Part shown: positions 1-22,972 of the stretch, piece after piece | Position numbering within the stretch: the stretch's first letter is position 1 | Layout: the number at the start of each line of letters is the position of its first letter | DNA from: a virus | Direction: 5' to 3' (one strand) | IMG/VR virus record: IMGVR_UViG_3300042691_020788 | Location: 1-22,972 of that record | Length of the DNA: 22,972 bases | The notes under the pieces: model-generated | What the model was told of the DNA's origin: nothing | Database searches by the model: none | What the model saw: only the letters and a program-made list of their open reading frames with translations | Made by a program: the position numbers and the translations under genes

Positions 1-1522
1 TCGCTGCCTTCGCTGCATTGCCTTTCGCAGCATCCTCTTGAATTTTTTCCCGGAGTACCACGGCCTCCTTCTCCTTCTTGACCTCGGCCATCATCACATT
101 CCTCCGCACGAGTGCGTATTGATACTCTTGCTGAACTCGTGGGTCGGTCTTGGCATAGTTCTCGGCTGCATTCTTGAGTGCATCGAACGAGGCCGTGGTT
201 GCTTGGAGGGTTCTCCGGGCAGCATCGGCACGAGTGACCTCTGATGCCTTGACTCCTCGCTCGGCAGCGATGGTCACTTGCATCTGCGAGATTTCCATCT
301 CGGCATTGTACTTGATGTTCTCCTTTATGTTGCGAATTTGCTTTGCAGTATATTCATCGCTCGACAATGCGACTTTATCGTATGCCTTCCGAACTGACCT
401 ATCCCAAAAATTGAACGAGTCGAAGAGATACTTCAATGCCGGGCCAACGATGCCGGAGGCATCCTTGCCTCCTTGCTTGATTGTGTTGAAGAATCGCTCC
501 ATGGATGCACCGAGCGAGTCAGTTTGCTCAAGCATCTGAGGCCCGAATGTCTGCTGCATCTGCATCGCCAACAATGGCAACACATCCTTCGCCATGACAT
601 TTCCGGAGGAAATCATCTTATTGAGTTCAATCTCAGAAACACCGATGGCATCGGCAGTCATTGCGAATGCTCCGGGAATCCTCTCTGACAATTGGCCACG
701 GAGTTCTTCCGCTTGCAGCACACCTTTCGAGAGCGATTGCTGCAATGCCCGGAATGCACCATCCATCTGCTCGGCAGAGAGACCCATTGCTCGTGATGCG
801 ACAACAACGGCCTTGAATTGCTCGTTGGTTGCCTCCACGGATTGTCCGGACAAAATCGCAGATGTTGCGAAATCCTTGTATGCTCCGGATGCCGTTTCAA
901 ACGAAACTCCGATGTTGTTGGATAATGACTTGAGTGATTCGATTTGCGCTTGTGCTGCTGAACTCGACCCGGTGAGAAACTTGAATTGAGCATTCAGCGA
1001 TTCAACTTGTCCTCCCATTTTCGCCATGGCGATGGTGGTTTCATAAATCTCCTTGGCAAGATAAATTTTGCCTCCCAATTTGACCATGTTTGTCAATTGA
1101 GTCAGCATATCGGCTTTTCCTCCGGCCGATGGCATCGTTGGCATCTTGGTCTGAGCGAGTTGCCGTTGGAATGCTGCTGCTGCTGCTTGATTCTTTCGGA
1201 GTTGCGCCTCGACTCCGGAGAATCCGGCTGCTGCCTTATTCCCGGCAGAAACGGCCTCCTTTCCGGCCTCCTTCAACGAATTTGTGAATGCCCTAACTTG
1301 AGATTGCGATTTACCAATGGCTGCACCGAACTTGACTGCTCCGGTAGTTGCCGGGCCAAGTCCGGCCGTGGAATCGCCTCCGGTCTGCCGTAGATTCTCT
1401 TGAAATTTATCGAGTGCTGCGTTCGCTGCTTTCTCTTCTGCCGTTAGCTTATCGAATGCCTCCGTTGCCTTGGACAATTCAGAGGAATCGACAACATATT
1501 TAATTTTGACCTCATTCAACAT
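1..1522 (-). CDS. Phage tail tape measure protein, N-terminal part (runs off left edge)
   Basis: An open frame of at least 507 codons starts at the ATG at 1522 (MLNEVKIKYVVDSSELSK) and is still open at base 1. After an Ala/Gln/Lys-rich helical N-terminus comes a segment typical of the lambda/TP901-type tape measure domain: residues around 170-330 contain FKFLTGSSSAAQAQIESL, SNNIGVSFETASGAYKDFA, AEELRGQLSERIPGAF and NVMAKDVLPLLAMQMQ. In this family the protein spans the tail lumen and fixes tail length, so the phage should have a long tail. The gene follows a terminator (1551-1575) and a TAnnTTTG promoter-like motif, so it may be transcribed separately from the chaperone gene upstream. Start choice: the ATG at 1531 hits a stop after four codons. 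Total length and the C-terminal domain cannot be seen. Confidence 0.92.
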   Translation of the reverse strand, partial: MLNEVKIKYVVDSSELSKATEAFDKLTAEEKAANAALDKFQENLRQTGGDSTAGLGPATTGAVKFGAAIGKSQSQVRAFTNSLKEAGKEAVSAGNKAAAGFSGVEAQLRKNQAAAAAFQRQLAQTKMPTMPSAGGKADMLTQLTNMVKLGGKIYLAKEIYETTIAMAKMGGQVESLNAQFKFLTGSSSAAQAQIESLKSLSNNIGVSFETASGAYKDFATSAILSGQSVEATNEQFKAVVVASRAMGLSAEQMDGAFRALQQSLSKGVLQAEELRGQLSERIPGAFAMTADAIGVSEIELNKMISSGNVMAKDVLPLLAMQMQQTFGPQMLEQTDSLGASMERFFNTIKQGGKDASGIVGPALKYLFDSFNFWDRSVRKAYDKVALSSDEYTAKQIRNIKENIKYNAEMEISQMQVTIAAERGVKASEVTRADAARRTLQATTASFDALKNAAENYAKTDPRVQQEYQYALVRRNVMMAEVKKEKEAVVLREKIQEDAAKGNAAKAA

Positions 1523-1539
1523 GGGTTCATGCGTTTTCG

Positions 1540-1547
1540 CAAAAGTA
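1540..1547 (-). promoter_or_regulatory. Possible promoter -7 box (TACTTTTG) for the tape measure gene
   Basis: On the minus strand the sequence reads TTTACTTTTGCGAAAACGC just before the tape measure start. TACTTTTG is an exact match to the Bacteroidetes -7 consensus TAnnTTTG. No TTTG lies 19 bp upstream (the spot holds GGTC), so the -33 half is missing. A near-identical block, TCTACTTTTGTGAAAACG, precedes the gene starting at 5602, also right after a terminator. A start site about 6 bp downstream would give a leader of about 11 nt. Confidence 0.4.
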
Positions 1548-1550
1548 AAG

Positions 1551-1575
1551 AAAAAAGGTCGGCATCGACCGACCC
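1551..1575 (-). terminator. Intrinsic terminator after the tail chaperone gene
   Basis: On the minus strand a 6-bp stem GGTCGG/CCGACC (1574-1569 with 1562-1557, loop TCGATG) is followed at once by six T residues (1556-1551). It starts 2 bases after the stop codon at 1577 and lies before the tape measure gene, consistent with rho-independent termination or attenuation between chaperone and tape measure. Confidence 0.65.
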
Positions 1576-1576
1576 A

Positions 1577-1918
1577 TTATTTACCAATTTTTCGATTTGC
1601 CTCCCGGAGTCTTGAGTTCTCCTTTTTCAACTCGTTGAGCCATGTGGAGTAAGTCAAGTAATATTCGTATATTGGTTTTTCGACCAAGCATTTAATCTTT
1701 TGTGGGTCTCCATCTCCGAAATGATAGATTTCGACAAATCTTCGCCTAAACTCCCGATGGATATAAGTGAAGTAATATGATTTATCGTGTTCATCATTCT
1801 TCTGCTTTCTGCCTCCAAATAGGTCGGAGAATTCTTGCTCAATTCTCGTAAAGAGGGAATGAATTCTGAGTCCGGCAGACTCAAAAAAAAACCCGGCACA
1901 TCGTTGTGAGTCATCCAA
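1577..1918 (-). CDS. Minus-one-frame continuation of the tail assembly chaperone-like gene
   Basis: This frame overlaps the 3' part of the 1654-2412 gene. Its second half (KSYYFTYIHREFRRRF, then YEYYLTYSTWLNELKKEN) looks like genuine coding sequence. It has no convincing start of its own: the only ATG, at 1918, lies inside the upstream gene. Both frames share a run of nine T residues (mRNA sense) at 1891-1883, GGGTTTTTTTTTGAGTC, where one base of -1 slippage joins them into a product of about 278 residues. A 5-bp hairpin, GAGTC/GACTC with loop TGCCG, follows the run directly. Many tailed phages make two tail chaperones by frameshifting in exactly this position, immediately before the tape measure gene. 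Alternatives are a homopolymer sequencing error that split one gene, or a frame switch somewhat further downstream. Confidence 0.6.
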   Translation of the reverse strand: MDDSQRCAGFFFESAGLRIHSLFTRIEQEFSDLFGGRKQKNDEHDKSYYFTYIHREFRRRFVEIYHFGDGDPQKIKCLVEKPIYEYYLTYSTWLNELKKENSRLREANRKIGK

Positions 1919-2412
1919 TGCTTCATCTTTGCCTCATTGTATGGATACTGATAATCCAATGGATTCTCGCCCTCATCAAAGTACATGACCGATGCCAACT
2001 TGAATGTCCGAGTGAACGAGAATGACATCGAGAGTTGCTCCTTGAGTCGGTTCGCTAAGATTCCAATCTCATACAACTTCTTGTCTGCCGGAGTTCGTTG
2101 GTTCATCACAAGTTGAATGAGCGACTCATTCCATGATTGCAGAACTGCCGGGTTGATTTGCCACAATTCCTCCGTGAGAATATCCCTCGCTGCGATGGCT
2201 CTCTGAAATGGGATGTTCACATCGGCCGAAAATCGGAAGTAATTGATGCCACCGGAAGTGAATGCGAACTCGATTTGGTCATGTCGCTCCTTCGGTGCGA
2301 TTCCGTTGTATCGTGGCACTCCGGGAATCACCGGATTCACCACTCCACTATCTCGACCGGAGGAATCAGTTTTCGAATCACGAAAAAATTTAGACCTAAA
2401 AAAAGCAAGCAT
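1654..2412 (-). CDS. Tail assembly chaperone-like protein (zero-frame product, 252 aa)
   Basis: The gene sits directly upstream of the tape measure gene, the usual place of lambda gpG/gpGT-type tail assembly chaperones. I recognise no catalytic motif. The middle (KLASVMYFDEGENPLDYQYPYNEAKMKHW) resembles, from memory, a protein conserved before the tape measure gene in Bacteroidota phages. The first 173 codons lie before a T9 run at 1891-1883. After it this frame continues for about 78 codons using codons less common here (ATA, AGT, TTA), while the -1 frame looks more native, so the C-terminus of the main product is uncertain. The start at 2412 overlaps the preceding gene by 76 bases. The chaperone role is inferred from position. 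Confidence 0.7.
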   Translation of the reverse strand: MLAFFRSKFFRDSKTDSSGRDSGVVNPVIPGVPRYNGIAPKERHDQIEFAFTSGGINYFRFSADVNIPFQRAIAARDILTEELWQINPAVLQSWNESLIQLVMNQRTPADKKLYEIGILANRLKEQLSMSFSFTRTFKLASVMYFDEGENPLDYQYPYNEAKMKHWMTHNDVPGFFLSLPDSEFIPSLRELSKNSPTYLEAESRRMMNTINHITSLISIGSLGEDLSKSIISEMETHKRLNAWSKNQYTNIT

Positions 2413-2672
2413 AAAGCAAACGATGAATCAAAGAGGAAAAACGAGATGGCGATGTACTGCCATCCGGCAGAGCAATACGGACATTCACCCAATGGTTTCG
2501 CCAAGTTCACCGGGAGTCTCTGCAATTGGCAGAGATACCACCGACCAACCGGATGGTCTTCCATCAAGAAATTCAAGAAATATGACAACATTGCGCTCAT
2601 TGTCGCAATCGTTGCTTGGCATAATAATGCAGCAACCTCTGCGTTTCCCTCCGCAAGATACTTGATACTCAT
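2337..2672 (-). CDS. Small phage membrane protein with CxxC-x-x-x-W motif
   Basis: 111 residues. There is a hydrophobic segment near residues 14-36 and a stronger C-terminal one near 72-99 (YIAISFFLFDSSFALCLLFL). Between them lies KPLGECPYCSAGWQY, a Cys pair followed by Trp. This arrangement resembles the DUF1360-type phage membrane proteins (CxxCxGxW), and similar proteins occur between terminase and tail genes in Bacteroidota phages; that link is from memory. It starts 11 bases after the previous stop and its end overlaps the chaperone gene. Function unknown; the Cys pair could bind a metal or form a disulfide. Confidence 0.75.
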   Translation of the reverse strand: MSIKYLAEGNAEVAALLCQATIATMSAMLSYFLNFLMEDHPVGRWYLCQLQRLPVNLAKPLGECPYCSAGWQYIAISFFLFDSSFALCLLFLGLNFFVIRKLIPPVEIVEW

Positions 2673-2683
2673 GTTCTTCCATT

Positions 2684-3049
2684 TTAGTAATCGAGTTTGA
2701 ATTGATTTTGTAATGATGTTCCGGCAGTCACTTGAAAAATCAATGATGTCACCGGGTCTCCGGATGCTTGAAGTTCAACAATCTCCAATGTTGTCGGATT
2801 GAACATAAACACCTCGTAAATCGGAGAGCCATATCCGTTGATGAATCCATCCGGAAGTTCTTCATCGAGAAAAATGGTTGCATAACCATCAATAACAGAC
2901 TTGGTCACCTCAACTACTGAGTCTCCCTTGTATATCCGAATCGTGATGGTTGGCTCGATGTACGATTCCGGAATCTTGATGAGCAATTCAACCGGGCATC
3001 CAACGAACGAATCGCAGATGCGAAAACTATTCTTGCAACAATTTACCAT
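2684..3049 (-). CDS. Hypothetical phage protein downstream of terminase (121 aa)
   Basis: The ATG at 3049 (MVNCCKNSFRICDSFVGCP) is preferred over the upstream ATG at 3181, which would lie deep within the terminase gene and add a low-complexity, non-native N-terminus. The chosen start still overlaps the terminase end by 23 bases. The protein has a Cys-rich N-terminus (four Cys in the first 18 residues) followed by a beta-rich body (TITIRIYKGDSVVEVTKSV, YGSPIYEVFMFNPTTLEIV). This fits a small structural or tail-associated protein. No family is recognised with certainty. Confidence 0.75.
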   Translation of the reverse strand: MVNCCKNSFRICDSFVGCPVELLIKIPESYIEPTITIRIYKGDSVVEVTKSVIDGYATIFLDEELPDGFINGYGSPIYEVFMFNPTTLEIVELQASGDPVTSLIFQVTAGTSLQNQFKLDY

Positions 3050-4367
3050 CGAACTTTGAGAGATTATATTCCCCGGCAATTTCGGAAAAATTCCCGAAAG
3101 AAAAATATCGCCAACAATCGAGTGCGTGAGACTTGTCCGGGTTCTTGGTCTTCCATGGGTCGAGTGAGAGTCTTCGGTCAACCTTGGCCTCCTTCAAGTC
3201 AATGATGAGGTCACGGCAATTGGCCCGGCTGATTTGAACCCGGCACTTCGAGAACACCAATGTGTCCACGATTCTCGTGTTCAGATGGCTCGGTGCTGAA
3301 CGCATGATGGCCATGACATTGTCCGGAAGACTCATGTAGTTCACGATGAGTTGATATGCCGATACATTGCCTCTCGTGGTTGCACTCCGGGAGTTTCCGG
3401 CCGGGTCTCCATGGATGATGAATCTGCGACCCGGATAATCGCTCTTGATGGTCTCGCAGAGGTCACCGAGGTCTCCGATGCGATACACCTTGAGAACATT
3501 GATTGTCGCATAATACTGATGACCGGGTTGGTTCTTGGAATACTGAGCCACCACGCAAGTATTTGTGACATTGAAGTCGAATGATAGATGAATGTTGAAC
3601 GATGGATGTGCCTTGATGTCACCATCCACAACATGGAGTTGCTCATCGAAGTTCTTTGCATAAAGCGATTCCCTATCCCAAATTCCCCAATTGCCGTTCG
3701 CATATACATCCCAATATGTGAAGTCAATCTCCTTGAGTGCCTCCATCCGGATTGGATACTCGGCATCGAGAAACTGCAACGAGTCTCGATAGGTCGAATG
3801 AGCGATGAGTATCTTGTCTCGCTCCAATGCCGGAGGATTGTCGAAGAATCGCTCCTTAATCCAATGTGAATCGCTGACCGGGTTGAATGTAAGGAAGAAT
3901 CGTTTTGGATGCTTGCTCACTCCCCGGAGGCGAAGAGTGATTTGAATGTAATCATCCTTCGTGAATTCCGTGGCCTCCTCCATCCAAATGAATTTCGCTT
4001 GAGTGAGCGACTTGAGTTTTTCCGGATTATCCACTCCCATCATGATGATGCGATTCGTGGCATACCGAATCTCGAAGAGGCCATCCAAGCATCGCACGAG
4101 ACCATCCAATCCCCACTCGCTTATCTTGTTCTTAAAATCGCCATACACGGAGTTCCGGATGGTTGCAGCGACCTTCCGCAGAACAACGAATGTCTGATGC
4201 TGATTCGTTGCATCATCGAGAATCTGAGCAAGGAGGAACTGAATCATGGTTTGCGATTTCCCCGAACCAGCACCACCATAGAGAATATTGTGAATCTTCG
4301 GCCGGGTTATCGCTCCGAGATACTTCTGATTCCACAATCGTGGATTGCTGATGTCAATGACTGCCAC
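3027..4367 (-). CDS. terL: Terminase large subunit
   Basis: 446 residues with both terminase domains. ATPase: Walker A GGAGSGKSQ at residues 31-39, Walker B FIWMEE at 126-131, coupling motif LTFNP near 159-163. Nuclease: candidate metal ligands D264 (LSFDFNV), D321 (FIIHGDP) and D417 (HALDCWRYF). It pumps DNA into the prohead and cuts concatemers. The start is GTG, three bases after the stop of the small subunit, consistent with coupled translation. The protein aligns from its first residues with typical terminases (ISNPRLWNQKYLGA), so the GTG is well placed. The 3' end overlaps the next gene by 23 bases. Unusually, no portal gene follows. Confidence 0.96.
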   Translation of the reverse strand: MAVIDISNPRLWNQKYLGAITRPKIHNILYGGAGSGKSQTMIQFLLAQILDDATNQHQTFVVLRKVAATIRNSVYGDFKNKISEWGLDGLVRCLDGLFEIRYATNRIIMMGVDNPEKLKSLTQAKFIWMEEATEFTKDDYIQITLRLRGVSKHPKRFFLTFNPVSDSHWIKERFFDNPPALERDKILIAHSTYRDSLQFLDAEYPIRMEALKEIDFTYWDVYANGNWGIWDRESLYAKNFDEQLHVVDGDIKAHPSFNIHLSFDFNVTNTCVVAQYSKNQPGHQYYATINVLKVYRIGDLGDLCETIKSDYPGRRFIIHGDPAGNSRSATTRGNVSAYQLIVNYMSLPDNVMAIMRSAPSHLNTRIVDTLVFSKCRVQISRANCRDLIIDLKEAKVDRRLSLDPWKTKNPDKSHALDCWRYFSFGNFSEIAGEYNLSKFDGKLLQE

Positions 4368-4370
4368 GAA

Positions 4371-4697
4371 TCAATCCTCGCTTGTCTCATCCTCCTCTCC
4401 CGGTGGTTTCGGCATGATGACCACATTGGTTGAACCGGAGAGTTCGATGCTCTCCTTGGCCTTACCATAGGCCCGGTCGATGATGAACTCAGCGGCACGG
4501 ACATCTCCTTTGATTGCCTTGTTTCTCATGGCCATCATGATGGCCTCGGCAGCACTCTTGCCGTTTTGAATGTCACCAAGTACCGAGTCCATGATTGTCT
4601 TCATGGATGGCAGTTTCGGCCGACCATTCGGATTGCCGGACTCGCCTTTCTTAAATCGATTCCCTTTTCCACGGATGTTCTCGAAATTCCCTTTCAT
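4371..4697 (-). CDS. terS: Terminase small subunit-like DNA-binding protein
   Basis: 108 residues immediately upstream of terL. The N-terminus (NRFKKGESGNPNGRPKLPS) carries the GxSGNPxGRP signature of the DUF5681 proteins found before phage large terminases. The middle (IMDSVLGDIQNGKSAAEAIMMAMRNKAIKGDVRAAEFIIDRAYGK split over two helices) fits the helical region that follows in that family. The acidic C-terminus is PGEEDETSED. Expected role: recognising phage DNA and handing it to the large subunit. Position and signature agree; direct small-terminase activity is inferred. Confidence 0.82.
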   Translation of the reverse strand: MKGNFENIRGKGNRFKKGESGNPNGRPKLPSMKTIMDSVLGDIQNGKSAAEAIMMAMRNKAIKGDVRAAEFIIDRAYGKAKESIELSGSTNVVIMPKPPGEEDETSED

Positions 4698-4716
4698 CGC
4701 TTTGCTTCCGCTTTGT

Positions 4717-5256
4717 TTATCTCTGACTGATTTTTGCCGGGATTCCGAACCCGGATAATGCTTGAGCGATTAGCGAGTGCGACCTCTGAGCCTCCTCCTC
4801 GGAGTTGAATTGAATCACGAGCGACTTCCCGGATTCGCTCTCGAAATTGGATGTCTCCTCCTCCAACGATGCCTCCTCGCTCTGCCATACATTCATTCCC
4901 CACTCCTTGAGTTCCTCGGCATCCCAATTGTTTCCGAGGTCATCCCAATCCCATTCACCATGGCTGAGATTATCCTTGATGATGAACTCTCGTTGCTTCT
5001 CCTCGCTCCAATCGACTTGGATGATTGGGCATTCCTTCCATCCGGCATCCTTCATCGCCCGGAATCGCATATTGCCTCCGAGGATGATGTTGTCTTGGTT
5101 GATGATTATCGGCCGGACATCGGCCATCTCCGGGAAGTCCTTGAGCGACTTCACGAGTTTGTGAAACTCATCATCCTTGATGATACGAGGATTCTCCGGG
5201 TTCGGTTTGACCCGGTAGATTGGCCATGTCATGATTCGTGTTTCCTCGTTCAGCAT
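4717..5256 (-). CDS. ParB/sulfiredoxin-fold nuclease domain protein
   Basis: The ParB-like N-domain is visible: VKPNPENPRIIKDDEFHKLV, then ADVRPIIIN, ILGGNMRFRAMKDAGW and a short acidic tail. These match the phage ParB-type (ParB/Srx) domain with its GGNxRxxA motif. In phages such proteins are found beside terminase genes and may act as DNA-binding or nicking proteins in packaging, but no role is proven from the sequence. Starts at 5256 (MLNEETRIM, overlapping the upstream stop by 7 bases) or 5232 (MTWPIYRV) are both possible. The C-terminal half is rich in Trp, Glu and Asp (EWDWDDLGNNWDAEELKEW). Confidence 0.85.
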   Translation of the reverse strand: MLNEETRIMTWPIYRVKPNPENPRIIKDDEFHKLVKSLKDFPEMADVRPIIINQDNIILGGNMRFRAMKDAGWKECPIIQVDWSEEKQREFIIKDNLSHGEWDWDDLGNNWDAEELKEWGMNVWQSEEASLEEETSNFESESGKSLVIQFNSEEEAQRSHSLIAQALSGFGIPAKISQR

Positions 5257-5453
5257 CGATGCTCTCTGATGATTTCCTTGAGTTGTCGCTTCTGCTCTTC
5301 CCGGCTCTCGATGAAGTCTGACATGAGTTGCCGGAGTTTGTCTGCTGCCTTGAATTCTTGACCACAAGCAACGAGCCATCGGTCATGGAAATCACGAGTC
5401 ACTTGGACTGAGACCTTAGTATATTCGACAAACTCTCGTGGCTCTCTTGGCAT
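5250..5453 (-). CDS. Small hypothetical protein (67 aa) upstream of the ParB-like gene
   Basis: The ATG at 5453 overlaps the stop of the 49-residue gene by one base (TAATG), strong support for this start; longer versions would run through that gene in another frame. The protein has a beta-like strand then helices (YTKVSVQVTRDFHDRWLVAC, then a charged helix SREEQKRQLKEIIREH). This pattern could fit a small ribbon-helix-helix DNA-binding protein, but no clear motif confirms that. Confidence 0.75.
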   Translation of the reverse strand: MPREPREFVEYTKVSVQVTRDFHDRWLVACGQEFKAADKLRQLMSDFIESREEQKRQLKEIIREHRC

Positions 5454-5602
5454 TACATCTTCTTTTTCTTCGCTGCCTTCTTGGCTTCCTTGGCCACGGA
5501 GAGAGCGATTGCGACTGCTTGCTTTTGTGGCCTTCCGGCTTTCATCTCGGTTGAGATGTTTTTTGAGATTGTCTTCTTGGAATATCCTTTTTTCAGAGGC
5601 AT
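5453..5602 (-). CDS. DUF6496-like small basic phage protein (49 aa)
   Basis: The protein begins MPLKKGYSKKTISKNISTEM and continues AGRPQKQAVAIALSVAKEAK before a Lys-rich tail. This matches a well-known family of about 50-65 residues in tailed phages (PLKKGxSxKxIxxNIxxEMxxGxPxKQAxAIAL). The function is unknown; the basic tail suggests nucleic-acid contact. It is the first gene after a terminator and a TACTTTTG motif, so it probably starts the transcript that runs through ParB-like, terS and terL. The next gene overlaps its stop by one base. Confidence 0.88.
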   Translation of the reverse strand: MPLKKGYSKKTISKNISTEMKAGRPQKQAVAIALSVAKEAKKAAKKKKM

Positions 5603-5619
5603 GGCGATTTTCGTTTTCA

Positions 5620-5627
5620 CAAAAGTA
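5620..5627 (-). promoter_or_regulatory. Possible promoter -7 box (TACTTTTG) for the terminase operon
   Basis: TACTTTTG on the minus strand matches TAnnTTTG exactly and is followed by TGAAAACG. The start codon at 5602 lies 17 bases downstream. No TTTG lies 19 bp upstream. The same arrangement (terminator, T-rich stretch, TACTTTTG, YGAAAACG) stands before the tape measure gene. Confidence 0.42.
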
Positions 5628-5642
5628 GAAAAAATCTAAAAC

Positions 5643-5665: not shown

Positions 5666-5692
5666 CTCTTTGCCTCTGAATCATATGCAATT

Positions 5693-6108: not shown

Positions 6109-6125
6109 TTTTGAAAGTAGAAAAT

Positions 6126-6145: not shown

Positions 6146-6153
6146 GGTGAAAC

Positions 6154-7442: not shown

Positions 7443-8253
7443 ATTTTTCATCGTATAAGTTTATCAATTCATCCTTGTCGGCCATGGACATGAAGTCGAT
7501 GACCATCTGCCTCTTTGCGTTGTCGGCAATCAACTTGTGCATCACATTGTTCTTGAGTTCCTCGGTAAATATCAAATTCTCGCCATGCTTGCTGAAAAGG
7601 TCTTGGAACGCATAAACATCTCGCCTCTTGTCTCTATCCTTGAGGAATTCAATCGGTGGTGCTTGTGTCTGCCGGAATGCTTCCCGGAAGTAGTATGACC
7701 TCCTCTCCTCGATTGATGGCTCGAATGCTCCGATGTCAATCAGTTTTTTGAACTGAAAATCGAGGGTCAAATCGTGAAATGTCGGTTTAGTCACGAAATT
7801 CACGAATCCATCACGAACCAATTTCCGCTTCTCCTCCTCCGATGGTTCGGCAAATCCGGTGATGCTTATTTTTTCCGGAGGCAATGTCGAACGATGTGAA
7901 TGGTCATATCGAAATTGCTTGTACCATCCGTAAATATTCGAGGCCGAAATCGTGGTGAGTTGATTCTCCAATCGGATTTCGCCATATGAGGCCATAGAGA
8001 TGGCCAAGGTGACATCATCGACCGGAGCATGAGGGTAAACATCCAAAATTTTTTTCACGGCCTCTGAGGCCGTTATTGCGAGAGTTTTCGCATCCGGGTT
8101 CAAACCCATCACGAGTGCTGCCTTGTGCAGCGCATCGTTGACCTTCATGACAACCGATTTCGGGTCTGCATTGAATTCATGCATAAGTCTTCCGGGAGCA
8201 TTGGCAACCTTGGCCAATGCTGCGGAATTAGTTTTCACCATGTTGCTCATCAA
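7423..8253 (-). CDS. Hypothetical protein downstream of the replication initiator-like gene (276 aa)
   Basis: No Walker motifs or other recognisable catalytic sites. The N-terminal half is Ala-rich and helical (VNDALHKAALVMGLN, ITASEAVKKILDVYPHAP) and contains ISMASYGEIRLENQLTTISA and IYGWYKQFRYDHSHR. The second half is rich in charged helices (SIEERRSYYFREAFRQTQAP). In many phages the gene after a DnaD/DUF4373-type protein encodes a helicase loader or partner, but this one lacks the P-loop expected for DnaC-like loaders, so I leave it unassigned. It overlaps the preceding gene by 26 bases, which indicates coupled expression. The DNA contains an 8-bp palindrome with one central base at 8057-8073. 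Confidence 0.8.
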   Translation of the reverse strand: MMSNMVKTNSAALAKVANAPGRLMHEFNADPKSVVMKVNDALHKAALVMGLNPDAKTLAITASEAVKKILDVYPHAPVDDVTLAISMASYGEIRLENQLTTISASNIYGWYKQFRYDHSHRSTLPPEKISITGFAEPSEEEKRKLVRDGFVNFVTKPTFHDLTLDFQFKKLIDIGAFEPSIEERRSYYFREAFRQTQAPPIEFLKDRDKRRDVYAFQDLFSKHGENLIFTEELKNNVMHKLIADNAKRQMVIDFMSMADKDELINLYDEKYGKKMD

Positions 8254-9016
8254 ATAAATCGTTTATGATGTTCACGGATTGTTGATAATTGGCCATCCGA
8301 ATGTCCATTTTTGATTGACCGGGATTTCCGGTGGTCGGCCGGGAGAACTTGGAATCGTTGCGATGCCAAGTTGCAAGTCGATTCGGAATCTCGAATGTCT
8401 TCTCAAGTTGCCAACGCATTTTTCCTTTTTGATTTTTTTCGCTCCAATAATTGGCAAAACTAAGCAACATCTCCTCTGAATACTTCTCCCGGTATTCACT
8501 TACTTTTTCAAAAAAAAGAATTTTCAAGTCTTCAACTTTTTCGATTTGTGCGGATGCCGGAACGGCATCACTAATATCTATTTTACTTTCTTTTACTTTA
8601 CTTTTCTTTTCTTTATTAGCATTGCGATTTGTATGCGTTCGCATTGCGTTCGCATCCGGTTCTGCAACTTGTTGATTGCGAAACTTTTCCCAACGAGTTA
8701 GTGCTGCTTTTTTCGCTCCATTCATGACATTTATTTGTGCTTGAATTCTGCGATTTACCGATGCAGATACGAACGCATTTTCATCGCATATAAACAAATC
8801 AAAGTCATGCACTACGGACTCGACAAGGTCGCATTGCACTCGCAATTCGAACGCAATGCGTTCGCATTCCGAACGCATAATCTTTCCCGATTCCTCATAT
8901 AACATCTCAACGATGCACCAATAAACACCGACTCCGGCCATTCCGTGTCGCATCGCTAACTTGACCAACTTCCGGTCATTCCGGGCATTGAAATCGTGGC
9001 TAAAATACTCTTTCAT
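8228..9016 (-). CDS. DUF4373 (Lin1244/Lin1753-like) replication protein
   Basis: The N-terminus, MKEYFSHDFNARNDRKLVKL then MRHGMAGVGVYWCIVEMLYE, is the hallmark of the DUF4373 domain, a winged-helix-like domain at the start of phage and plasmid replication proteins. Residues around 115-145 form a low-complexity linker (MRTHTNRNANKEKKSKVKES) encoded by a repeat-rich, AT-rich stretch. The C-terminal third (LLSFANYWSEKNQKGKMRWQ, then EKTFEIPNRLATWHRN) resembles the DnaD-like C-terminal region. Likely role: replication initiation or primosome recruitment. The start overlaps the previous stop as ATGA. The candidate origin lies within this gene. Confidence 0.9.
   Translation of the reverse strand: MKEYFSHDFNARNDRKLVKLAMRHGMAGVGVYWCIVEMLYEESGKIMRSECERIAFELRVQCDLVESVVHDFDLFICDENAFVSASVNRRIQAQINVMNGAKKAALTRWEKFRNQQVAEPDANAMRTHTNRNANKEKKSKVKESKIDISDAVPASAQIEKVEDLKILFFEKVSEYREKYSEEMLLSFANYWSEKNQKGKMRWQLEKTFEIPNRLATWHRNDSKFSRPTTGNPGQSKMDIRMANYQQSVNIINDLFDEQHGEN
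8572..8880. other. Candidate replication origin: iteron-like repeats plus AT-rich tract
   Basis: Two tandem copies of GCGTTCGCAT lie at about 8635-8655 (ATGCGTTCGCATTGCGTTCG), next to a tract at 8572-8622 made almost only of A and T with scattered C (TTTTACTTTCTTTTACTTTA). A second cluster at about 8828-8877 has GCGTTCGCAT once more and several partial copies in both orientations (CGAACGCA, GCATTGCACTCGCAA). Repeats beside an AT-rich unwinding region inside the replication initiator gene is the lambda ori/O layout. Function is inferred from pattern only. Confidence 0.45.
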
Positions 9017-9493: not shown

Positions 9494-9946
9494 TTAATTT
9501 TGCATTATGAAATAATAACCGAGAAACGCAATCGCCTCCATGATTGCCAAGAATGCGAGAATTGTGGTGGTGACCCGGTTCTTGTGAAACTTATTGTTGA
9601 TTTCATCGGTTATGTCATCATTTATGAATCCGAGCATTCCTACGGACTCCTCAAGAGATAAATTGCGTTTCTTGAGGTCATCAATGGCCTTGGCCAATTC
9701 CGAATTCCTCCGGTGGAGGTCATTGCGTTCATGCTTGAAATAGTCGGCAGTCTTCCGATATGAATCCTTTCGCTTTACTTGCTCCTCCCGGTTGATTATG
9801 GTGTTGACAATTGCCATCGGCAACCATAGTTTCACAACTTGGCCGGATGCCTCTTTTCCCTCGACTTGATAATACTTTGTCTCTGGGTTCGAGTTGATAA
9901 CCGACCACTCGCCCAAGTGCATAATTTTGAATGTGAGTTTTTCCAT
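9494..9946 (-). CDS. Coiled-coil protein with C-terminal membrane anchor (150 aa)
   Basis: The ATG at 9946 (MEKLTFKIMHLGEWSVINSN) avoids overlap with the nuclease gene, so it is preferred over the ATG at 9991. After a small beta-like N-terminal part (VEGKEASGQVVKLWLPMAIV) come charged heptad-like helices (YFKHERNDLHRRNSELAKAI, DDLKKRNLSLEESVGML). A final hydrophobic stretch (TTTILAFLAIMEAIAFLGYY) forms one C-terminal membrane segment. This is a tail-anchored layout. Function unknown. Confidence 0.78.
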   Translation of the reverse strand: MEKLTFKIMHLGEWSVINSNPETKYYQVEGKEASGQVVKLWLPMAIVNTIINREEQVKRKDSYRKTADYFKHERNDLHRRNSELAKAIDDLKKRNLSLEESVGMLGFINDDITDEINNKFHKNRVTTTILAFLAIMEAIAFLGYYFIMQN

Positions 9947-11166: not shown

Positions 11167-11238
11167 AATTTTTTTTCGATTTTTTCTTTTTGTCGCTCAA
11201 TGAGTTACAAATTATTTTCATTTTTCGTGAAAAATAAT

Positions 11239-11269
11239 TTTGCAGATTCAAAAACTTGCCGTTCCTTCG
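11239..11269 (+). promoter_or_regulatory. Bacteroidetes-type promoter, shared family copy 2
   Basis: TTTG (11239-11242), 19-bp spacer, TTCCTTCG (11262-11269). The extended -33 block TTTTGCAGATTCAAAAAC and the downstream TCACTAACCAA match the family; the -7 box is the weakest of the four. Upstream lies an AT-rich stretch with TTTTCATTTTTCGTGAAAAA. The gene at 11296 starts 26 bases after the -7 box. Confidence 0.75.
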
Positions 11270-13005: not shown

Positions 13006-13065
13006 TTAAGAATACCCATCCGAGTATCCATCGGAGTATGCTCCGATGAATCCCGGACTTAGGTA
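13006..13065 (-). other. Short -1-frame extension at the end of the capsid gene
   Basis: If the ribosome slips -1 in the run CTTTTTA at 13070-13064, the capsid frame continues past its TAA as YLSPGFIGAYSDGYSDGYS and stops at 13006, just before the terminator. The SDGY repeats look protein-like. A perfect 8-bp hairpin (CATCGGAG/CTCCGATG, 13029-13048) lies downstream. No start codon in this frame makes it a free gene. It may be a programmed extension or a remnant. Confidence 0.4.
13029..13048. repeat. 8-bp hairpin after the capsid gene
   Basis: CATCGGAG and CTCCGATG pair perfectly around a TATG loop, 11 bases beyond the capsid stop codon in the minus sense. It is followed by no T-run and is separate from the terminator at 12979-12999. 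Confidence 0.7.
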
Positions 13066-14177
13066 AAAAGTGCCTCGAATACTCCGTTCACACCTTCGTT
13101 GGTATCTCCGGTTGCGAAGAGGTCAGTCGGAGGAGTATAGCAATCGAAGAATTGCTCAAGATAGCAAGTGTAACTTTCTGAACAAGAATCCTCAAGAATT
13201 CTCACATCGGCCTTTACTGATGGCATTCCGGGGAGAGGCATTGTGAATCGCTCCATGTCACCGATGCGACCATATTGGCCAACATATTGGAGATATGGTG
13301 TATAGATGGCAGAACCGGGAGAGAAAATCAACGCACCATTCTCGTTGCCGAGTTGAGTCACGATGTTCTCATCATAATAGTATTGAGCGATTCCGGTGTT
13401 GTCACGAACGGCAGCGAAATTGATACCATTCGCTCCTTGGCCGAAGTAGCGAGAATCGTTCATCCAAATGCGTTGCAATGCACCCGCACCACCGATGATG
13501 ATTGGCGCACCTTTGAATCCGGTCTTCATGATTTCTTGCTTCATTTGGAACAGACCAATCGCATTGATTTCACCATTCGTTCCTTCCACATCGAATGTCT
13601 TGGAGGCAGCACCACCGACCCATGTTCCTTTTCCGGTATCCATGATGTCGAGAAGTTCGATGTTGATTGCTTGCACAAGAGCATTGGATGCTGCTTGGAA
13701 GTCGGTGAAAAGTTCACGAATCACGGAGAGTTCAGTCTGAGCAGCACCGAGGGCATTGGCTCGCTGCACGATAGTCCCCGGCTGATTGCTCCCGGTTAGT
13801 CTCACAAGTTCAAGATACGATTCGCAGTATATGCGAATCTGAGCCTCAGTCATTGTGAAGTTGATTCCCTTGTACTTAGAGACCTCAAATGTGTCCTCAA
13901 GATATTGAAGAGTATCACCTTCGCCCACGGCACATTCCTTCGTGTCAGATGCAGCAGAGGCGAGCAGTCGCTGCTTGTAAGCAACACGAACTTGCTTGGA
14001 TTGTCCCGTGCCATTGTCATTAGCAAGGCGAATAACTTGACCGGGAATCATGTTGGATGGGTCGGTCAGAGCAGCGAGCGCACCACCATGAATGTTCACA
14101 TTGAGTGCGTTGTTGATTAGATTGTCGGACAATGAAGTGAGAATTGCCGGACAAATATTGTTTGTTGATATTGGCAT
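13059..14177 (-). CDS. Major capsid protein
   Basis: 372 residues, immediately after a scaffold-like gene (two-base gap). Reads MPISTNNICPAILTSLSDNL, then a basic region (SKQVRVAYKQRLLASA), FEVSKYKGINFTMTEAQIRI, an Ala/Gln-rich helix around QRANALGAAQTELSVIRELF that could be the HK97 spine helix, and PIIIGGAGALQRIWMNDSRY. Several Cys residues cluster near the C-terminus (ILEDSCSESYTCYLEQFFDC). Its length, position and the scaffold neighbour fit an HK97-fold capsid protein as found in Bacteroidota phages; no fold search was possible. A -1 frame extension is described separately. Confidence 0.85.
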   Translation of the reverse strand: MPISTNNICPAILTSLSDNLINNALNVNIHGGALAALTDPSNMIPGQVIRLANDNGTGQSKQVRVAYKQRLLASAASDTKECAVGEGDTLQYLEDTFEVSKYKGINFTMTEAQIRIYCESYLELVRLTGSNQPGTIVQRANALGAAQTELSVIRELFTDFQAASNALVQAINIELLDIMDTGKGTWVGGAASKTFDVEGTNGEINAIGLFQMKQEIMKTGFKGAPIIIGGAGALQRIWMNDSRYFGQGANGINFAAVRDNTGIAQYYYDENIVTQLGNENGALIFSPGSAIYTPYLQYVGQYGRIGDMERFTMPLPGMPSVKADVRILEDSCSESYTCYLEQFFDCYTPPTDLFATGDTNEGVNGVFEALFT

Positions 14178-16942: not shown

Positions 16943-16953
16943 ATATTTCAAAA

Positions 16954-17443: not shown

Positions 17444-17449
17444 AAAAAG

Positions 17450-17470
17450 AACCCGGTCAAAAACCGGGTT
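17450..17470. terminator. Bidirectional terminator
   Basis: AACCCGGT (17450-17457) pairs with ACCGGGTT (17463-17470). Plus-strand T-run to 17474; minus-strand T-run from 17448 to 17442. It separates the convergent plus cassette and the minus gene ending at 17504. Confidence 0.9.
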
Positions 17471-17503
17471 TTTTCTTGTCATCAAAAATGGAAAAACTTA
17501 TGA

Positions 17504-18541: not shown

Positions 18542-18550
18542 GGCGATGAT

Positions 18551-18558
18551 TTTCGCAA
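18551..18558 (-). promoter_or_regulatory. TAACTTTG motif before the 345-residue gene
   Basis: On the minus strand TAACTTTGCGAAAATC stands just before the ATG at 18541. It matches TAnnTTTG and shares GCGAAAA with the motifs before the tape measure gene. No TTTG 19 bp upstream. It may be a secondary promoter. Confidence 0.3.
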
Positions 18559-18560
18559 AG

Positions 18561-18797
18561 TTATGAATTTGATTCTTTTTCTCCGCTGGCATTCAGAATT
18601 CGGAAAATCTTATTCGATAATCCGACCCAAACTCCGAGAACTTGAGCGAGAATGAAGAGGAGGATATTGTCGGTCGATTGAACTCGGTTGACCTTGTAAA
18701 GCCAACCGACTCCAATCAGCAGACCAACGAGGATTGCCGTGACTGCCGTGTATGCATACACTTGCATCCTCTTATTGTACTGCCTTTCGGAATTCAC
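18561..18797 (-). CDS. Two-helix membrane protein, holin-like (78 aa)
   Basis: A GTG at 18797 gives a GTGA overlap with the preceding stop and begins VNSERQYNKRMQVYAY; an ATG at 18887 would extend it by 30 residues over the previous gene. Two membrane helices are clear: AVTAILVGLLIGVGWLY and NILLFILAQVLGVWVGL, with a charged tail (ASGEKESNS). Size and two-helix layout fit a class II holin. Beside a spanin-like gene and an endolysin, the lysis role is a reasonable inference. Confidence 0.6.
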   Translation of the reverse strand: MNSERQYNKRMQVYAYTAVTAILVGLLIGVGWLYKVNRVQSTDNILLFILAQVLGVWVGLSNKIFRILNASGEKESNS

Positions 18798-19111
18798 ATT
18801 CCCGGAAATAATCCCCGGAGTAGACCTCCCACGAACTTGCCTCTTCGCTCGGCCCGGTCTGACTTGGTTGTCTTCACTTGTTGGCATGAATCGAGATACA
18901 TCGTTGCTTTTGCCATCTTGATTGTTGCGTTCTGCATGGAGTCAAGTCGCATCTCGTTGTGAGCGATTCGCATCGTGAGACCCATGTTCCATTCCTCCAA
19001 TTTCTTGGCCGACTCAATGTCTCGTTGGTATGCTTGGTTGTCAAAATAGAAATTGACTCCGATGGCAATCAGAATCAGAACCAATGCCAATCGCTCAATG
19101 ATAATAGTCAT
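18794..19111 (-). CDS. Inner-membrane spanin-like protein (105 aa)
   Basis: ATG at 19111 overlaps the preceding stop as ATGA. One N-terminal membrane helix (LALVLILIAIGVNFYF) is followed by a charged helical region (YQRDIESAKKLEEWNMGLTM, RIAHNEMRLDSMQNATIKMA). This is the layout of Rz-like i-spanins, which help break the outer membrane of Gram-negative hosts. No Rz1-type lipoprotein partner was found nearby, so the call is tentative. Confidence 0.5.
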   Translation of the reverse strand: MTIIIERLALVLILIAIGVNFYFDNQAYQRDIESAKKLEEWNMGLTMRIAHNEMRLDSMQNATIKMAKATMYLDSCQQVKTTKSDRAERRGKFVGGLLRGLFPGM

Positions 19112-19389
19112 TTGAAGATGTTTTTGAATTCCCAAACGATTGATTTCAGCACTCCGACCTTCTTGGTCTCATTCCCTTCAACGATTGTGAAATCGTGTTG
19201 CTTGGCTTTCTTGTATAGGTCAATGAACGCATTCAGCAATCGCACGGATAGGAGCAGAATCCATCCGTAATGGAGGAGGAACGATTCAATCGTGGATAAG
19301 TCCGGAGGCATCACTTCTGCCAATTGCACCCATGCGACTACGGCATATGCCGGGATGTCTGCGAGAAAGTGATATATCGTGTCTTTCAT
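19108..19389 (-). CDS. Small membrane protein of the lysis cluster (93 aa)
   Basis: Start at 19389 (MKDTIYHFLADIPAYAVVAW) or 19431 (14 residues longer, through an AT-rich promoter-like stretch). Hydrophobic segments AYAVVAWVQLAEV and LLHYGWILLLSVRLLNAF are followed by a basic helical tail (KKAKQHDFTIVEGNETKKVG). Candidate holin or antiholin by position next to the divergent endolysin gene. Function inferred. Confidence 0.55.
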   Translation of the reverse strand: MKDTIYHFLADIPAYAVVAWVQLAEVMPPDLSTIESFLLHYGWILLLSVRLLNAFIDLYKKAKQHDFTIVEGNETKKVGVLKSIVWEFKNIFK

Positions 19390-19449
19390 TAATTTCGTAA
19401 AGTATTGCACAAAAATATCGGCAAATTGCATTCATAATTTCTCCAATTT

Positions 19450-19872
19450 ATGGTCACATCACGAGATTGTTTCGCCAAGTACGGCAAACCCGACCCGGCA
19501 AATCCATGCATGACTTTATGGGATGTTCCGACATCACTCGAAATCGGGATGATACCGAAACGCATTTATTGCAACAAGGACATGGTGATGCCTCTGAGCA
19601 TCGCATTCGGGAATCTCATCAACCGGGGATTCGTTGCTGAACTCAAGACATGGGATGGTTGTTTCAACATCCGGAAAATCCGGGGAGGCAATGCCATGTC
19701 GCTGCACTCATGGGGAGTTGCCGTTGATGTCAATGCGTTCAGCAATGGCCTCGGTAAAGAGCCAACTCTCTCACCGGGATTCGTGAAGTGCTTCACCGAT
19801 GCCGGGTTCGATTGGGGAGGAACTTGGAAACGCAAGGATGGGATGCATTTTCAACTTGCGAAAATCAAGTAG
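19450..19872 (+). CDS. M15-family peptidase endolysin (D-Ala-D-Ala/L-Ala-D-Glu peptidase type)
   Basis: 140 residues with the M15 zinc ligands in order: SLHSWGVAVDVNAF gives H86 and D93, and DGMHFQL gives H133; FDWGGTWKRKDGMHFQL is typical of the M15_4 endolysins. It should cut peptide crosslinks in the cell wall. There is no signal peptide, so it would need the neighbouring holin-like proteins. It is the only plus-strand gene in a minus-strand block, divergent from the membrane genes and convergent with the next gene (the stop codons abut at 19872/19873). Confidence 0.93.
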   Translation: MVTSRDCFAKYGKPDPANPCMTLWDVPTSLEIGMIPKRIYCNKDMVMPLSIAFGNLINRGFVAELKTWDGCFNIRKIRGGNAMSLHSWGVAVDVNAFSNGLGKEPTLSPGFVKCFTDAGFDWGGTWKRKDGMHFQLAKIK

Positions 19873-20100
19873 TCAATCTAACAACATACGAGGGTCGATG
19901 AATGGCTGCAACTCCGGGTTTTTCGCCCATTCGACCGGGGAATACACGAAGTCATTGACTTGACCTTTCATGACCTTTTCGTGGCGATTCGTACCGAGTA
20001 CGATGTCTTCCGGTAATCCATCCGGAAATGCAGCACAAGTCACGATGTTCAAAGGTCTCCAATGAATACAAGTGCGACATGGCAGTTCTTTTGCTTCCAT
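19873..20100 (-). CDS. Small Cys-containing phage protein after the minor head gene (75 aa)
   Basis: Starts within TAATG overlap of the minor head stop. It contains CRTCIHWRPLNIVTCAAFPD, a Cys set (C8, C11, C22) with AAFPDGLPEDIVLG. Small proteins with CxxC...CxAFPDGIP occur next to minor head genes in many tailed phages (from memory). A zinc or iron-sulfur site is possible. Function unknown. Confidence 0.8.
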   Translation of the reverse strand: MEAKELPCRTCIHWRPLNIVTCAAFPDGLPEDIVLGTNRHEKVMKGQVNDFVYSPVEWAKNPELQPFIDPRMLLD

Positions 20101-21824
20101 TACTTTTTGAAATATTTATTTACGAGTTTTCCGATTTCTGATGCCCATTTTGATGGCCGGGAGTGCAAATGAAAATTCGCAAATCCCTCGGCAAAGAATT
20201 CATCGACATTGGTCTGCGAGTAGTCTCCGAGATAGTTTCTGCGGAATGACTCTTCGAGTTTCATGAACTCCGGAGATGTTCGCAAAAATCTCGCATCTGC
20301 CTCGGCTATCTTGGTCATGTCTGCTCTTATCCCTTGTTTGTAATCAACAAACAATTTGTCCATTTCACTCCAAAATTGACTCGATGATGGTTGAAATGCT
20401 CGACTCTGAGAAATGAAGTGAGCGAACTCATGCACCGGAGTCGCAATGCGTTCATTGACTTCATCAACGATTGATTTCGGCATTGAGATTCTGTTTTTTG
20501 GCAATCTTGACAAAACCCGGTCGAGGTCAACTCCGCTGCCAAAATTTACTTCCACATACAATCGTTTTCCGTTCGAAAGAGAACTTACAACTCTGCCGTA
20601 ATAATCATTTTTTTGCCGAAAAATCAATTGGCTTTGCCATCCGGTTTTTCCATCAATTCGGTACATATTGGCCAACTTATCAATCGCTGCAACTTGCTCA
20701 CGCAATACATCTGCGGACACATCACGAGCGACAATTGTTTTCGAAAAACTCAGACCATAGTTTTTTTCAAGTGAATCGTTTAGGTATTGCTTCAATCCAT
20801 CAATGGTTTTCGGCAATCCGGATGTATCTCCGGCAAATCCCTTCGGTGGTTTCGGAGTTGGCAATGGCTTCGGCAAAACCGGAGGAGCAGTCATCTGCGG
20901 AGGGATTGCCGGAGGAGGAGGAGCGACCGGAGGCGATGGTGGAGTCGCTGCCGGAGGAGTGATTCCTTTCGCCCGGTTATACTGCTCCTCAGTCACGGGC
21001 CAAATCTTGTGTCGACAATTATATCCTCCGGCATAGGAGAAAATCGTTGTTGAGTTTGTTCCGGCCATCTTGCCATCCCATGTCTGAGATGCCCATTTCT
21101 CGACCTCTTCCTTCGTGTAATACTTCCCGGCTCTTGATTGGCAGAACTGCCTCGTGTCTCCGATGATTGTTCCTTGGTACAAATAATGCCTCATACCGAG
21201 GTCTTCGGAGATTGTCTGCAAGTATTCACGATTGAAGACCATCAACGAGTCATTGGTTGTCTGCTTGATGTAGTTTTCAAGATATGCCTTGCGTTGCGGA
21301 GTGCCTTCGATGAACTTCGCCAAGGTCTCCATCAGAGTCGCTCGGTCAGAGACTCCGGCAATATTGGCTTTCAAGACCTCTTGAATCGCATTGCCGAAGT
21401 TGTCAACGATGCCTCCACCGAGGAGTGCATCCTTGGTGATGGCGATGTTGGATTCGAGAATTGCGTTGTACAACTTCCGGGTCGGCTCAAAATCATCCAT
21501 GGTTGACCCGATGAATTGGTCGGTCAGATTCTTGATGGTCTTGAACTCGTTGGTCAACTTCAAGACCTCTCGTTGGTAGTCCGGATTCTTGACCACGAGG
21601 TCTCCCATCTTTCTCTTGAGGCCGATGAGTTCTCGCAATGTCTTCGCCCGGTCATTCGGGTCGAGAGAGAGATTGGCAGCTACTCTCTGCACATCACGAG
21701 AGAGAGTTGCAAAGACCTTCGGCAATGCTCCGGCCATGCCGTTTTCGAGCGAGACCTCAAGGTCTCCCAATTGCTTGATGATTGCTCGTTGCTTCGGAGT
21801 TAGCGCATCCAACGGGTCTGCCAT
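20100..21824 (-). CDS. Minor head protein (SPP1 gp7/Mu F type) fused to a zincin-like domain
   Basis: 574 residues. Residues 1-285 form the phage minor head domain, ending with RQFCQSRAGKYYTKEEVEKW and GGYNCRHKIWPVTEEQYNRA, the classic GYxCRHxxxP motif of Mu F-like proteins. A proline-rich linker spans about 290-328. The C-terminal part has VHEFAHFI (HExxH at 465-469) and, about 75 residues on, VDEFFAEGFANF with two Glu residues that could be the third zinc ligand. So this virion protein may carry a metallopeptidase into the capsid or host. A portal gene would be expected upstream but the strand changes there. Confidence 0.88.
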   Translation of the reverse strand: MADPLDALTPKQRAIIKQLGDLEVSLENGMAGALPKVFATLSRDVQRVAANLSLDPNDRAKTLRELIGLKRKMGDLVVKNPDYQREVLKLTNEFKTIKNLTDQFIGSTMDDFEPTRKLYNAILESNIAITKDALLGGGIVDNFGNAIQEVLKANIAGVSDRATLMETLAKFIEGTPQRKAYLENYIKQTTNDSLMVFNREYLQTISEDLGMRHYLYQGTIIGDTRQFCQSRAGKYYTKEEVEKWASQTWDGKMAGTNSTTIFSYAGGYNCRHKIWPVTEEQYNRAKGITPPAATPPSPPVAPPPPAIPPQMTAPPVLPKPLPTPKPPKGFAGDTSGLPKTIDGLKQYLNDSLEKNYGLSFSKTIVARDVSADVLREQVAAIDKLANMYRIDGKTGWQSQLIFRQKNDYYGRVVSSLSNGKRLYVEVNFGSGVDLDRVLSRLPKNRISMPKSIVDEVNERIATPVHEFAHFISQSRAFQPSSSQFWSEMDKLFVDYKQGIRADMTKIAEADARFLRTSPEFMKLEESFRRNYLGDYSQTNVDEFFAEGFANFHLHSRPSKWASEIGKLVNKYFKK

Positions 21825-21829
21825 GGCCT

Positions 21830-21837
21830 CAAATTTA
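21830..21837 (-). promoter_or_regulatory. TAAATTTG motif directly before the minor head gene
   Basis: Exact TAnnTTTG on the minus strand; its transcript would start at about the ATG at 21824, that is nearly leaderless. The -33 position has AATG in place of TTTG. Weak candidate for the promoter of the minus block. Confidence 0.3.
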
Positions 21838-21904
21838 CAACTTCCGAATCATTTGTCATTCTGCGATTTCATTGCTATTTTTCGCAGATTTAAGAACATC
21901 GAAA

Positions 21905-22402
21905 ATGGAATATTTATATGATAATGTTCCTCGGTTCATGGAGGCCGAGGCGAGGGTTCAGCGCATCCTTGAGGCGAGAGGATATACAATCCTCCGAACA
22001 TCCGGAGAGTTCAACAAGGCCGACCTTTTTCTCGGAAAAGAGGTCGATGGCCGGAATACACTTGTCGGAATAGCAGAGGTCAAATCACGAGAGTATGCCG
22101 GGAATGTTCCGTTGACTCTCGAATACATCAAGAACTCCGGTGGTTATTTGGTTTCGTACCACAAACTTGACCATGCTGCCAAGTTGAGCGAGTTGCACGA
22201 AGTTCCGTTTTTTCTCATCGTGAATCTGATGCTCACTCGGCAATTGCTATTCTTCCAACTTACTCATCACACCGGGAAATTCGCCACCAAATTCATCACC
22301 GAGCGAACCATCACGCAGAAGTCATCGAACGGAGGAACGGCCAATCGGCTCAACGCATTCCTCCCGGCTGATGGCGAGTTTTTTTCGGTCACCAAGTATT
22401 AA
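21905..22402 (+). CDS. PD-(D/E)XK-like nuclease (165 aa)
   Basis: MEYLYDNVPRFMEAEARVQR, then ARGYTILRTSGEFNKADLFL and VGIAEVKSREYAGNVPLTLE. The arrangement E16 (helix), D near residue 41 (KADLFL) and ExK in AEVKSR is the PD-(D/E)XK core. The part after (YIKNSGGYLVSYHKLDHAAK) fits the helix that follows. It may be a phage endonuclease or Holliday-type resolvase, different from the VRR-NUC at 10 kb. The start at 21905 avoids the AT-rich intergenic region. The specific family is not recognised. Confidence 0.72.
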   Translation: MEYLYDNVPRFMEAEARVQRILEARGYTILRTSGEFNKADLFLGKEVDGRNTLVGIAEVKSREYAGNVPLTLEYIKNSGGYLVSYHKLDHAAKLSELHEVPFFLIVNLMLTRQLLFFQLTHHTGKFATKFITERTITQKSSNGGTANRLNAFLPADGEFFSVTKY

Positions 22403-22403
22403 C

Positions 22404-22661
22404 ATGAATAATTTCCAAAAGTACGGAATCACCATGCTCTCGGCTCTGATTCTTGAGGCCGGGTCAACGATGTACATCGCTGCCGTGGCTGACCGCCATG
22501 CGATGATGTTATTTTGGGCATTCATCGGGCCATTCTTGAATCTGCCGTTCACCGGGTTCATGTTGGAGACCAAGACATGGAGGCAACGATTCGCTCTCGC
22601 ATTGTCCATGGCCATTGGATATTGCCTTGGCTCATTCGTTGTTTATTGGCAGCGATTGTGA
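22404..22661 (+). CDS. Small multi-pass membrane protein (85 aa)
   Basis: The start at 22404 (MNNFQKYGITMLSALILEAG) follows the nuclease stop by one base. Hydrophobic helices: ITMLSALILEAGSTMYIAA, MMLFWAFIGPFLNLPF and FALALSMAIGYCLGSFVVYW. It looks like a three-helix membrane protein. It is followed by the family promoter copy 4. Function unknown; holin-like or superinfection-related are both possible. Confidence 0.72.
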   Translation: MNNFQKYGITMLSALILEAGSTMYIAAVADRHAMMLFWAFIGPFLNLPFTGFMLETKTWRQRFALALSMAIGYCLGSFVVYWQRL

Positions 22662-22698
22662 CCGAGGAAAAAATATTTCAAATATTTTCATCCAATAT

Positions 22699-22729
22699 TT
22701 TGCAGTTTCAGAAATATGGTATTCCTTTG
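22699..22729 (+). promoter_or_regulatory. Bacteroidetes-type promoter, shared family copy 4
   Basis: TTTG (22699-22702), 19-bp spacer, TTCCTTTG (22722-22729). ATATTTTGCAGTTTCAGAAA in the -33 block and CTCACTAACCAA after. Upstream AAAAAATATTTCAAATATTT is also shared. Drives the gene starting at 22760. Confidence 0.85.
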
Positions 22730-22759
22730 CTCTCACTAACCAAGTACAACAAAAAAGTC

Positions 22760-22972
22760 ATGCAAAATCTCACAAACATCCTCCTCGCTCAGACTGCCGA
22801 ATTCAAATCAGCATTTATCGCAAAAACTCAAGCATTCGCAATTCGTGAATTCGCTCGTTTCGAAAAGATTGCTTCATGGGACAAGGCAGAATGGTGCAAG
22901 TTTTTCGGACTTACACCAAGTATTGGAAAAATTTACAATGGAGTTCAATATATGGAATTCCCAAACAATTTC
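22760..22972 (+). CDS. Hypothetical protein, cut by the right window end (at least 71 aa)
   Basis: The ATG at 22760 opens a frame (MQNLTNILLAQTAEFKSAFI, then QAFAIREFARFEKIASWDKA and EWCKFFGLTPSIG) still open at the last base. It is the first gene behind family promoter copy 4, like the small genes behind copies 1-3, though the protein sequences differ. Helical and charged, no family recognised. Confidence 0.7.
   Translation, partial: MQNLTNILLAQTAEFKSAFIAKTQAFAIREFARFEKIASWDKAEWCKFFGLTPSIGKIYNGVQYMEFPNNF

Follow-up and report, generated by a model that had tools for sequence, protein, structure and literature searches.

GATC is one of about fifteen short words avoided by an uncultured phage, probably through sustained escape from restriction

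The 22,972-nucleotide stretch analysed here, referred to as the window, is the complete uncultured virus record IMGVR_UViG_3300042691_020788. It is a fragment of a tailed phage, probably of freshwater source, in which the tetramer GATC and a series of other short words are missing or nearly so. No near match, such as a near-identical cultured phage, was found among 50,697 phage records. The terminase large subunit gene (3027..4367, minus strand; PHROG 3717, E = 3e-54) served as the basis for the family search and the codon-level comparison. It adjoins a gene for a DUF5681 protein (4371..4697, minus strand; Pfam PF18932, E = 5.5e-16), by its position a possible small subunit. For a ParB N-terminal domain protein (4717..5379, minus strand), the match to a PHROG family called DNA methyltransferase is confined to the N-terminal ParB part of that family, so that the protein has no methyltransferase domain. 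A family match identifies a replication initiation-like protein with a Lin1244/Lin1753 N-terminal domain (8228..9016, minus strand). The conserved protein at 13059..14177 (minus strand), probably the major capsid protein judging solely from its position, has no PHROG match; its homologues in two members of the window's clade are 86-89% identical, and a scan with it returned only these two already known members. An M15 peptidase (19450..19872, plus strand; Pfam PF13539, E = 4.9e-14; PHROG endolysin) is the probable endolysin. The structural protein at 20100..21824 (minus strand) is related to a protein of Flavobacterium phage lotta8 (31-32% over 38%); its C-terminal part, common with lotta8, has an HExxH motif (HEFAH) and is possibly a metalloprotease. 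At the edge of the record, 21782-22402 encodes a putative PDDEXK_14 phage endonuclease (Pfam PF24579, E = 7e-6).

The initial annotation had reported no GATC in the window where about 90 copies were to be expected, and both figures were confirmed. The 22,972 bases (46.8% GC) contain no GATC, whereas base composition predicts 89 copies and the Burge-Karlin compositional bias, the measure of published avoidance surveys, predicts 91. That annotation had also proposed a count of all tetramers against a maximum-order Markov expectation; GATC, with 0 observed and 139 expected (z = -16), is the lowest among all 256. The Poisson probability of zero copies is ~1e-39, and chance is excluded as the cause. 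A codon shuffle that preserved each protein and its codon usage across the 16.3 kb coding part of the window gave 89.5 +/- 6.8 copies, with a minimum of 70 in 300 shuffles, so that the depletion goes beyond the constraints of protein sequence and codon usage.

Many other words share this fate. CAGG/CCTG, CGCG, CTAG, CGNCG, GGNNCC, GGWCC, ACNGT, CASTG, CYCGRG, RCCGGY, RCATGY and GTCGT have no copy in the window, and residual copies persist of GACG/CGTC (1), ACGT (1), GCSGC (1), CCAG/CTGG (3), AGCT (3) and ACAG/CTGT (4). At least eight tetramers besides GATC, together with several words of 5-6 bp, are missing or nearly so. In the coding part, the codon shuffle predicted 175 copies of CCWG (4 observed), 108 of GACG (1 observed), 64 of CGNCG (none), 46 of AGCT (1 observed), and 37, 35, 35 and 24 of GGNNCC, CGCG, ACGT and ACNGT, respectively, all of which are absent there. 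The Burge expectations for three non-palindromic tetramers were 93 for CCAG, 82 for CAGG and 75 for GACG, against 3, 0 and 1 observed. When elimination is defined as a bias below 0.1 of the Burge expectation with more than 15 copies expected (PMC6286503), the window has eliminated seven palindromes, GATC and six others among the listed palindromes tried, and these three tetramers. A greedy word search with an order-2 Markov null returned 15 rows for the window and 27 for the pooled clade; 'about fifteen' is a rounded count because several rows represent the same word, split up or in overlapping forms. CTAG is weaker evidence than the rest, since TA and TAG are rare anyway, TA being strongly under-represented in the window at 0.38 of expectation. 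Most of the avoided words are palindromic, CCAG, CAGG and GACG being the exceptions, and most of the missing palindromes other than GATC coincide with known Type II specificities. An EcoRII-type CCWGG target was rejected, as CCWG is missing in every context.

The losses appear to have left a trace in another word. CCGG is enriched in the window, with 253 copies per strand against 69 predicted by composition, yet RCCGGY is absent. In the coding part CCGG occurs 183 times against 83 in the codon shuffle, an excess about the size of the CCWG loss. Apparently, the excess reflects synonymous escape from CCWG in which proline codons were moved to CCG. At 0.52 per kb, GCGC is scarce in the window, whereas most clade members have it three to five times as often; it may be a further word that is being lost in the lineage of the window.

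How far these absences are inherited was assessed across some 80 viral loci, all from a single terminase family and gathered from two scans. Ten records at ~90% or more terminase identity have the window's word set, with GATC occurring once in 153 kb. A group at 74% terminase identity lacks GATC, ACGT and CTAG. The groups at 70-72% retain GATC and variously lack CAGC, CGAG, CTAG, GACG and ACGT; in the sister-group phages L033, L036, L040 and L041, CAGC is almost eliminated, and CGAG too in two of them. Elsewhere in the family, CATG is missing from L043, L049 and L052, and GGCC from L083, L086 and L087. L049 (21,320 bases, 61% terminase identity), a distant relative without GATC, CATG, CCGG, ACGT, CGCG and GGNNCC, is a second, independent case of broad avoidance in the family. 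Many relatives near 60% lack GGNNCC-type words only, or no tetramer at all, and GATC is retained in most distant relatives. On a quick tree with open forks, GATC avoidance requires three changes, CCAG one and ACNGT one. Words have also been regained in single clade records: ACGT in G001 (23 copies) and G004 (11), GTCGT in L029 (11), and CAGG in G003, where the 11 copies are nearly all TCAGG and lie 7 and 4 on the two strands. Such word-by-word turnover among clades and records would be expected if host enzymes changed.

Could the missing words instead be an unusual tetranucleotide signature of the host-phage pair, set by composition or mutation bias and not by cutting? The scarcity of TA alone makes CTAG rare, and host genomes too can avoid restriction palindromes (PMC6286503). 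However, the exact words stand at zero, although sequences one step away from GATC number 1,687, and the losses surpass what nulls based on dinucleotides, trinucleotides or codons predict. The missing words differ between sister clades of the family, and random substitutions would have recreated them. We regard a bias of this kind as a highly improbable source of the pattern.

The comparison of the window with its relative G002 addresses whether selection continues. The two differ by 3,726 substitutions, whose random placement predicts ~61 GATC in the aligned part, and G002 has none. For the other words, G002 holds no CCWG against 175 expected, 3 GACG against 90, no ACNGT against 35 and no GGNNCC against 32. 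Among the control words, TGCA, CATG and AATT are near expectation, whereas TTAA and GCGC deviate, TTAA lying below expectation. The random-substitution null takes no account of codon constraints, and the control words therefore outweigh the exact z-scores. The terminase gene alignment has 30 homologous positions at which relatives carry GATC; the window has kept none of them, and 15 were cleared with the residues unchanged. Selection against GATC is current and not a relic of one ancestor.

These results also bear on a purely technical origin, namely that GATC-cutter digestion during library preparation left uncut molecules only to be assembled. The window is a single uncultured assembly, and some library protocols do use GATC cutters. 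The same absences, however, recur across many separate sample accessions and extend to many words besides GATC; compensating codon changes accompany them, and relatives of similar source retain GATC. An artefact of this sort is hardly credible. The initial annotation had suggested restriction-driven selection behind the loss of GATC. The selection is well supported by the relatives, the substitutions and the synonymous clearing, with restriction as its natural cause; a single GATC-directed enzyme as the whole story was rejected, given the many words that are missing. The direction of the earlier interpretation was right and its scope too narrow, GATC being one of about fifteen avoided words.

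The three non-palindromic tetramers deserve separate consideration. Under the strictest of three nulls, every one of the eight clade records that reach 10 kb has eliminated non-palindromic tetramers, and none of 67 T7-like records has; among the other family records the figure is 5 of 37, among lotta relatives 2 of 8 and among named phages 1 of 10, the records in this comparison being related and the counts not independent. One explanation would be that CCAG, CAGG and GACG were lost to a non-classical defence, such as a phosphorothioate-like or bacteriophage exclusion (BREX)-like system or the avoidance of a CRISPR protospacer-adjacent motif, acting atop the restriction of palindromes. The three words differ from most orthodox Type II sites in being asymmetric and 4 bp long; their elimination throughout the clade fits such an agent, as does the loss of CAGC and CGAG instead in the sister group. 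The presence of the residual CAGG of G003 on both strands disfavours a strand-sensitive, Type III-like system, and strand-biased avoidance was accordingly set aside. Avoidance of a protospacer-adjacent motif, on the other hand, would not be expected to produce a genome-wide zero, since only copies beside targeted protospacers matter. Restriction enzymes that recognize asymmetric sites of 4 bp are known (MnlI, CCTC; AciI, CCGC), so that a classical explanation is possible. BREX motifs are non-palindromic 6-mers (PMC7230728). On balance, a non-classical defence as the cause is unlikely. Equally tentative is the idea that the lost CCAG, CAGG and GACG, and CAGC and CGAG in the sister group, record an undescribed class of defence with very short asymmetric targets; if this holds, genomes of escaping phages would reveal the targets of such a defence.

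Several features suggest that the host is probably a member of the Bacteroidota, a call that is drawn from sequence. Shine-Dalgarno-like 4-mers lie upstream of only 3 of 22 genes, a scarcity also seen in some other phyla. TAnnTTTG is a promoter-type consensus of Bacteroidota (PMC6847099), and the window contains 14 such boxes against 8.8 expected, a number reached in 5 of 100 shuffles and hence marginally above chance. Four boxes have counterparts in similar context in G002. The box TACTTTTG at 1540..1547 (minus strand), upstream of a long reading frame, and the box of the same sequence at 5620..5627 (minus strand) are kept there, as is TAATTTTG at 11235..11242 (plus strand); for TAATTTTG at 9495..9502 (plus strand), G002 has the similar element TATTTTTG in the same context. 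Two scans of genome contigs yielded no relative and no prophage relative, and tblastn searches that used the replication, portal-like and tail-like proteins did not point to a host. Some of the sample accessions, which we take to come from bloom lakes, had prompted the idea of a Microcystis host. Microcystis has many restriction systems (PMC8262939). The idea was dropped in view of the few Shine-Dalgarno sequences, the lack of any eliminated site in Microcystis phage Ma-LMM01 and the absence of a genome match.

Taken together, the evidence makes it very probable that a phage, most likely of a Bacteroidota host, escapes many restriction systems through sustained site elimination. Many restriction systems of past and present hosts would have been encountered over time, and selection would have removed, and would still be removing, their recognition words, largely via synonymous codon changes, with GATC as one target among about fifteen. 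Restriction endonucleases are presumably the selecting agents. A number of points weigh against this interpretation. The exact word list varies with the null model, and some of the words overlap. CCAG, CAGG and GACG are non-palindromic, and surveys see little or no avoidance beyond orthodox Type II sites (PMC6286503). The assignment of the host rests on sparse Shine-Dalgarno sequences, a marginal box count and one distant homologue. Finally, the cause of the word loss is inferred, and no enzyme of any avoided-word specificity has been linked to this phage.

Some relatives encode methyltransferases. A search for three families of methyltransferase was negative in all 8 clade records and positive in 14 of 36 other records, the contigs being fragments; the contrast (p = 0.033, uncorrected for ancestry) is no more than suggestive of a trade-off between site avoidance and a phage methyltransferase. 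In a defence-protein scan of ten clade proteins, a weak match to BrxD (E = 0.0056) was judged to be due to chance.

The missing words of a phage are a record of the enzymes of its hosts, and the record here is unusually long and differs by clade. Uncultured phages could in this way reveal the restriction repertoires of their hosts, narrow down the hosts themselves and time the turnover of restriction targets. The eliminated non-palindromic words contradict the limit to orthodox Type II sites drawn by the survey and hint at enzymes to seek.

How does the window compare with known systems? No published case in this phage family was found in the literature searched, the coverage of which was partial. 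As a control of the method, GATC and GGNCC were retrieved in Staphylococcus phage K and GGCC in Bacillus phage SPO1, words that match the known host enzymes Sau3AI, Sau96I and BsuRI. Phage K and T7 lack GATC, as the window does, and SPO1 lacks GGCC; each of the three, however, has one eliminated site in 23 kb, against seven plus three in the window. By the survey definition, Ma-LMM01, FCL-2, KHP30 and phi10:1 have no eliminated site. Closer to the window are lotta8 (Flavobacterium) and P2559S (Croceibacter), lytic phages of Bacteroidota with seven eliminated palindromes each; since they match its seven, multi-word avoidance is not unique to the window phage. They differ in that their palindromes are mostly others (CATG, CCGG, GGCC) and in that no non-palindromic tetramer is eliminated under the strict test. 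In the survey of prokaryotic viruses by Rusinov et al. (2018; PMC6286503), Type II palindromes of 4-6 bp were typically eliminated by non-temperate phages with double-stranded DNA, and avoidance was seen almost only at orthodox Type II sites. The window resembles the surveyed viruses in having eliminated seven such palindromes; it differs by its three non-palindromic tetramers, and for the surveyed viruses the host enzymes are known. A published parallel to the multi-word loss, including that of GATC and CTAG, is offered by the HF1-group haloviruses (PMC7230728). There, GATC and CTAG are wholly absent in all isolates, AGCT and GGWCC are absent in some and many 6-mer palindromes are missing, which is interpreted there as strong purifying selection exerted by diverse defences of the hosts. 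These viruses are archaeal, with genomes of ~70-78 kb, most of them carry an N6-methylase gene, and only palindromes were compared. Site elimination is a known strategy; what sets the window and its relatives apart is the breadth of the avoidance, its turnover clade by clade and the loss of non-palindromic tetramers.

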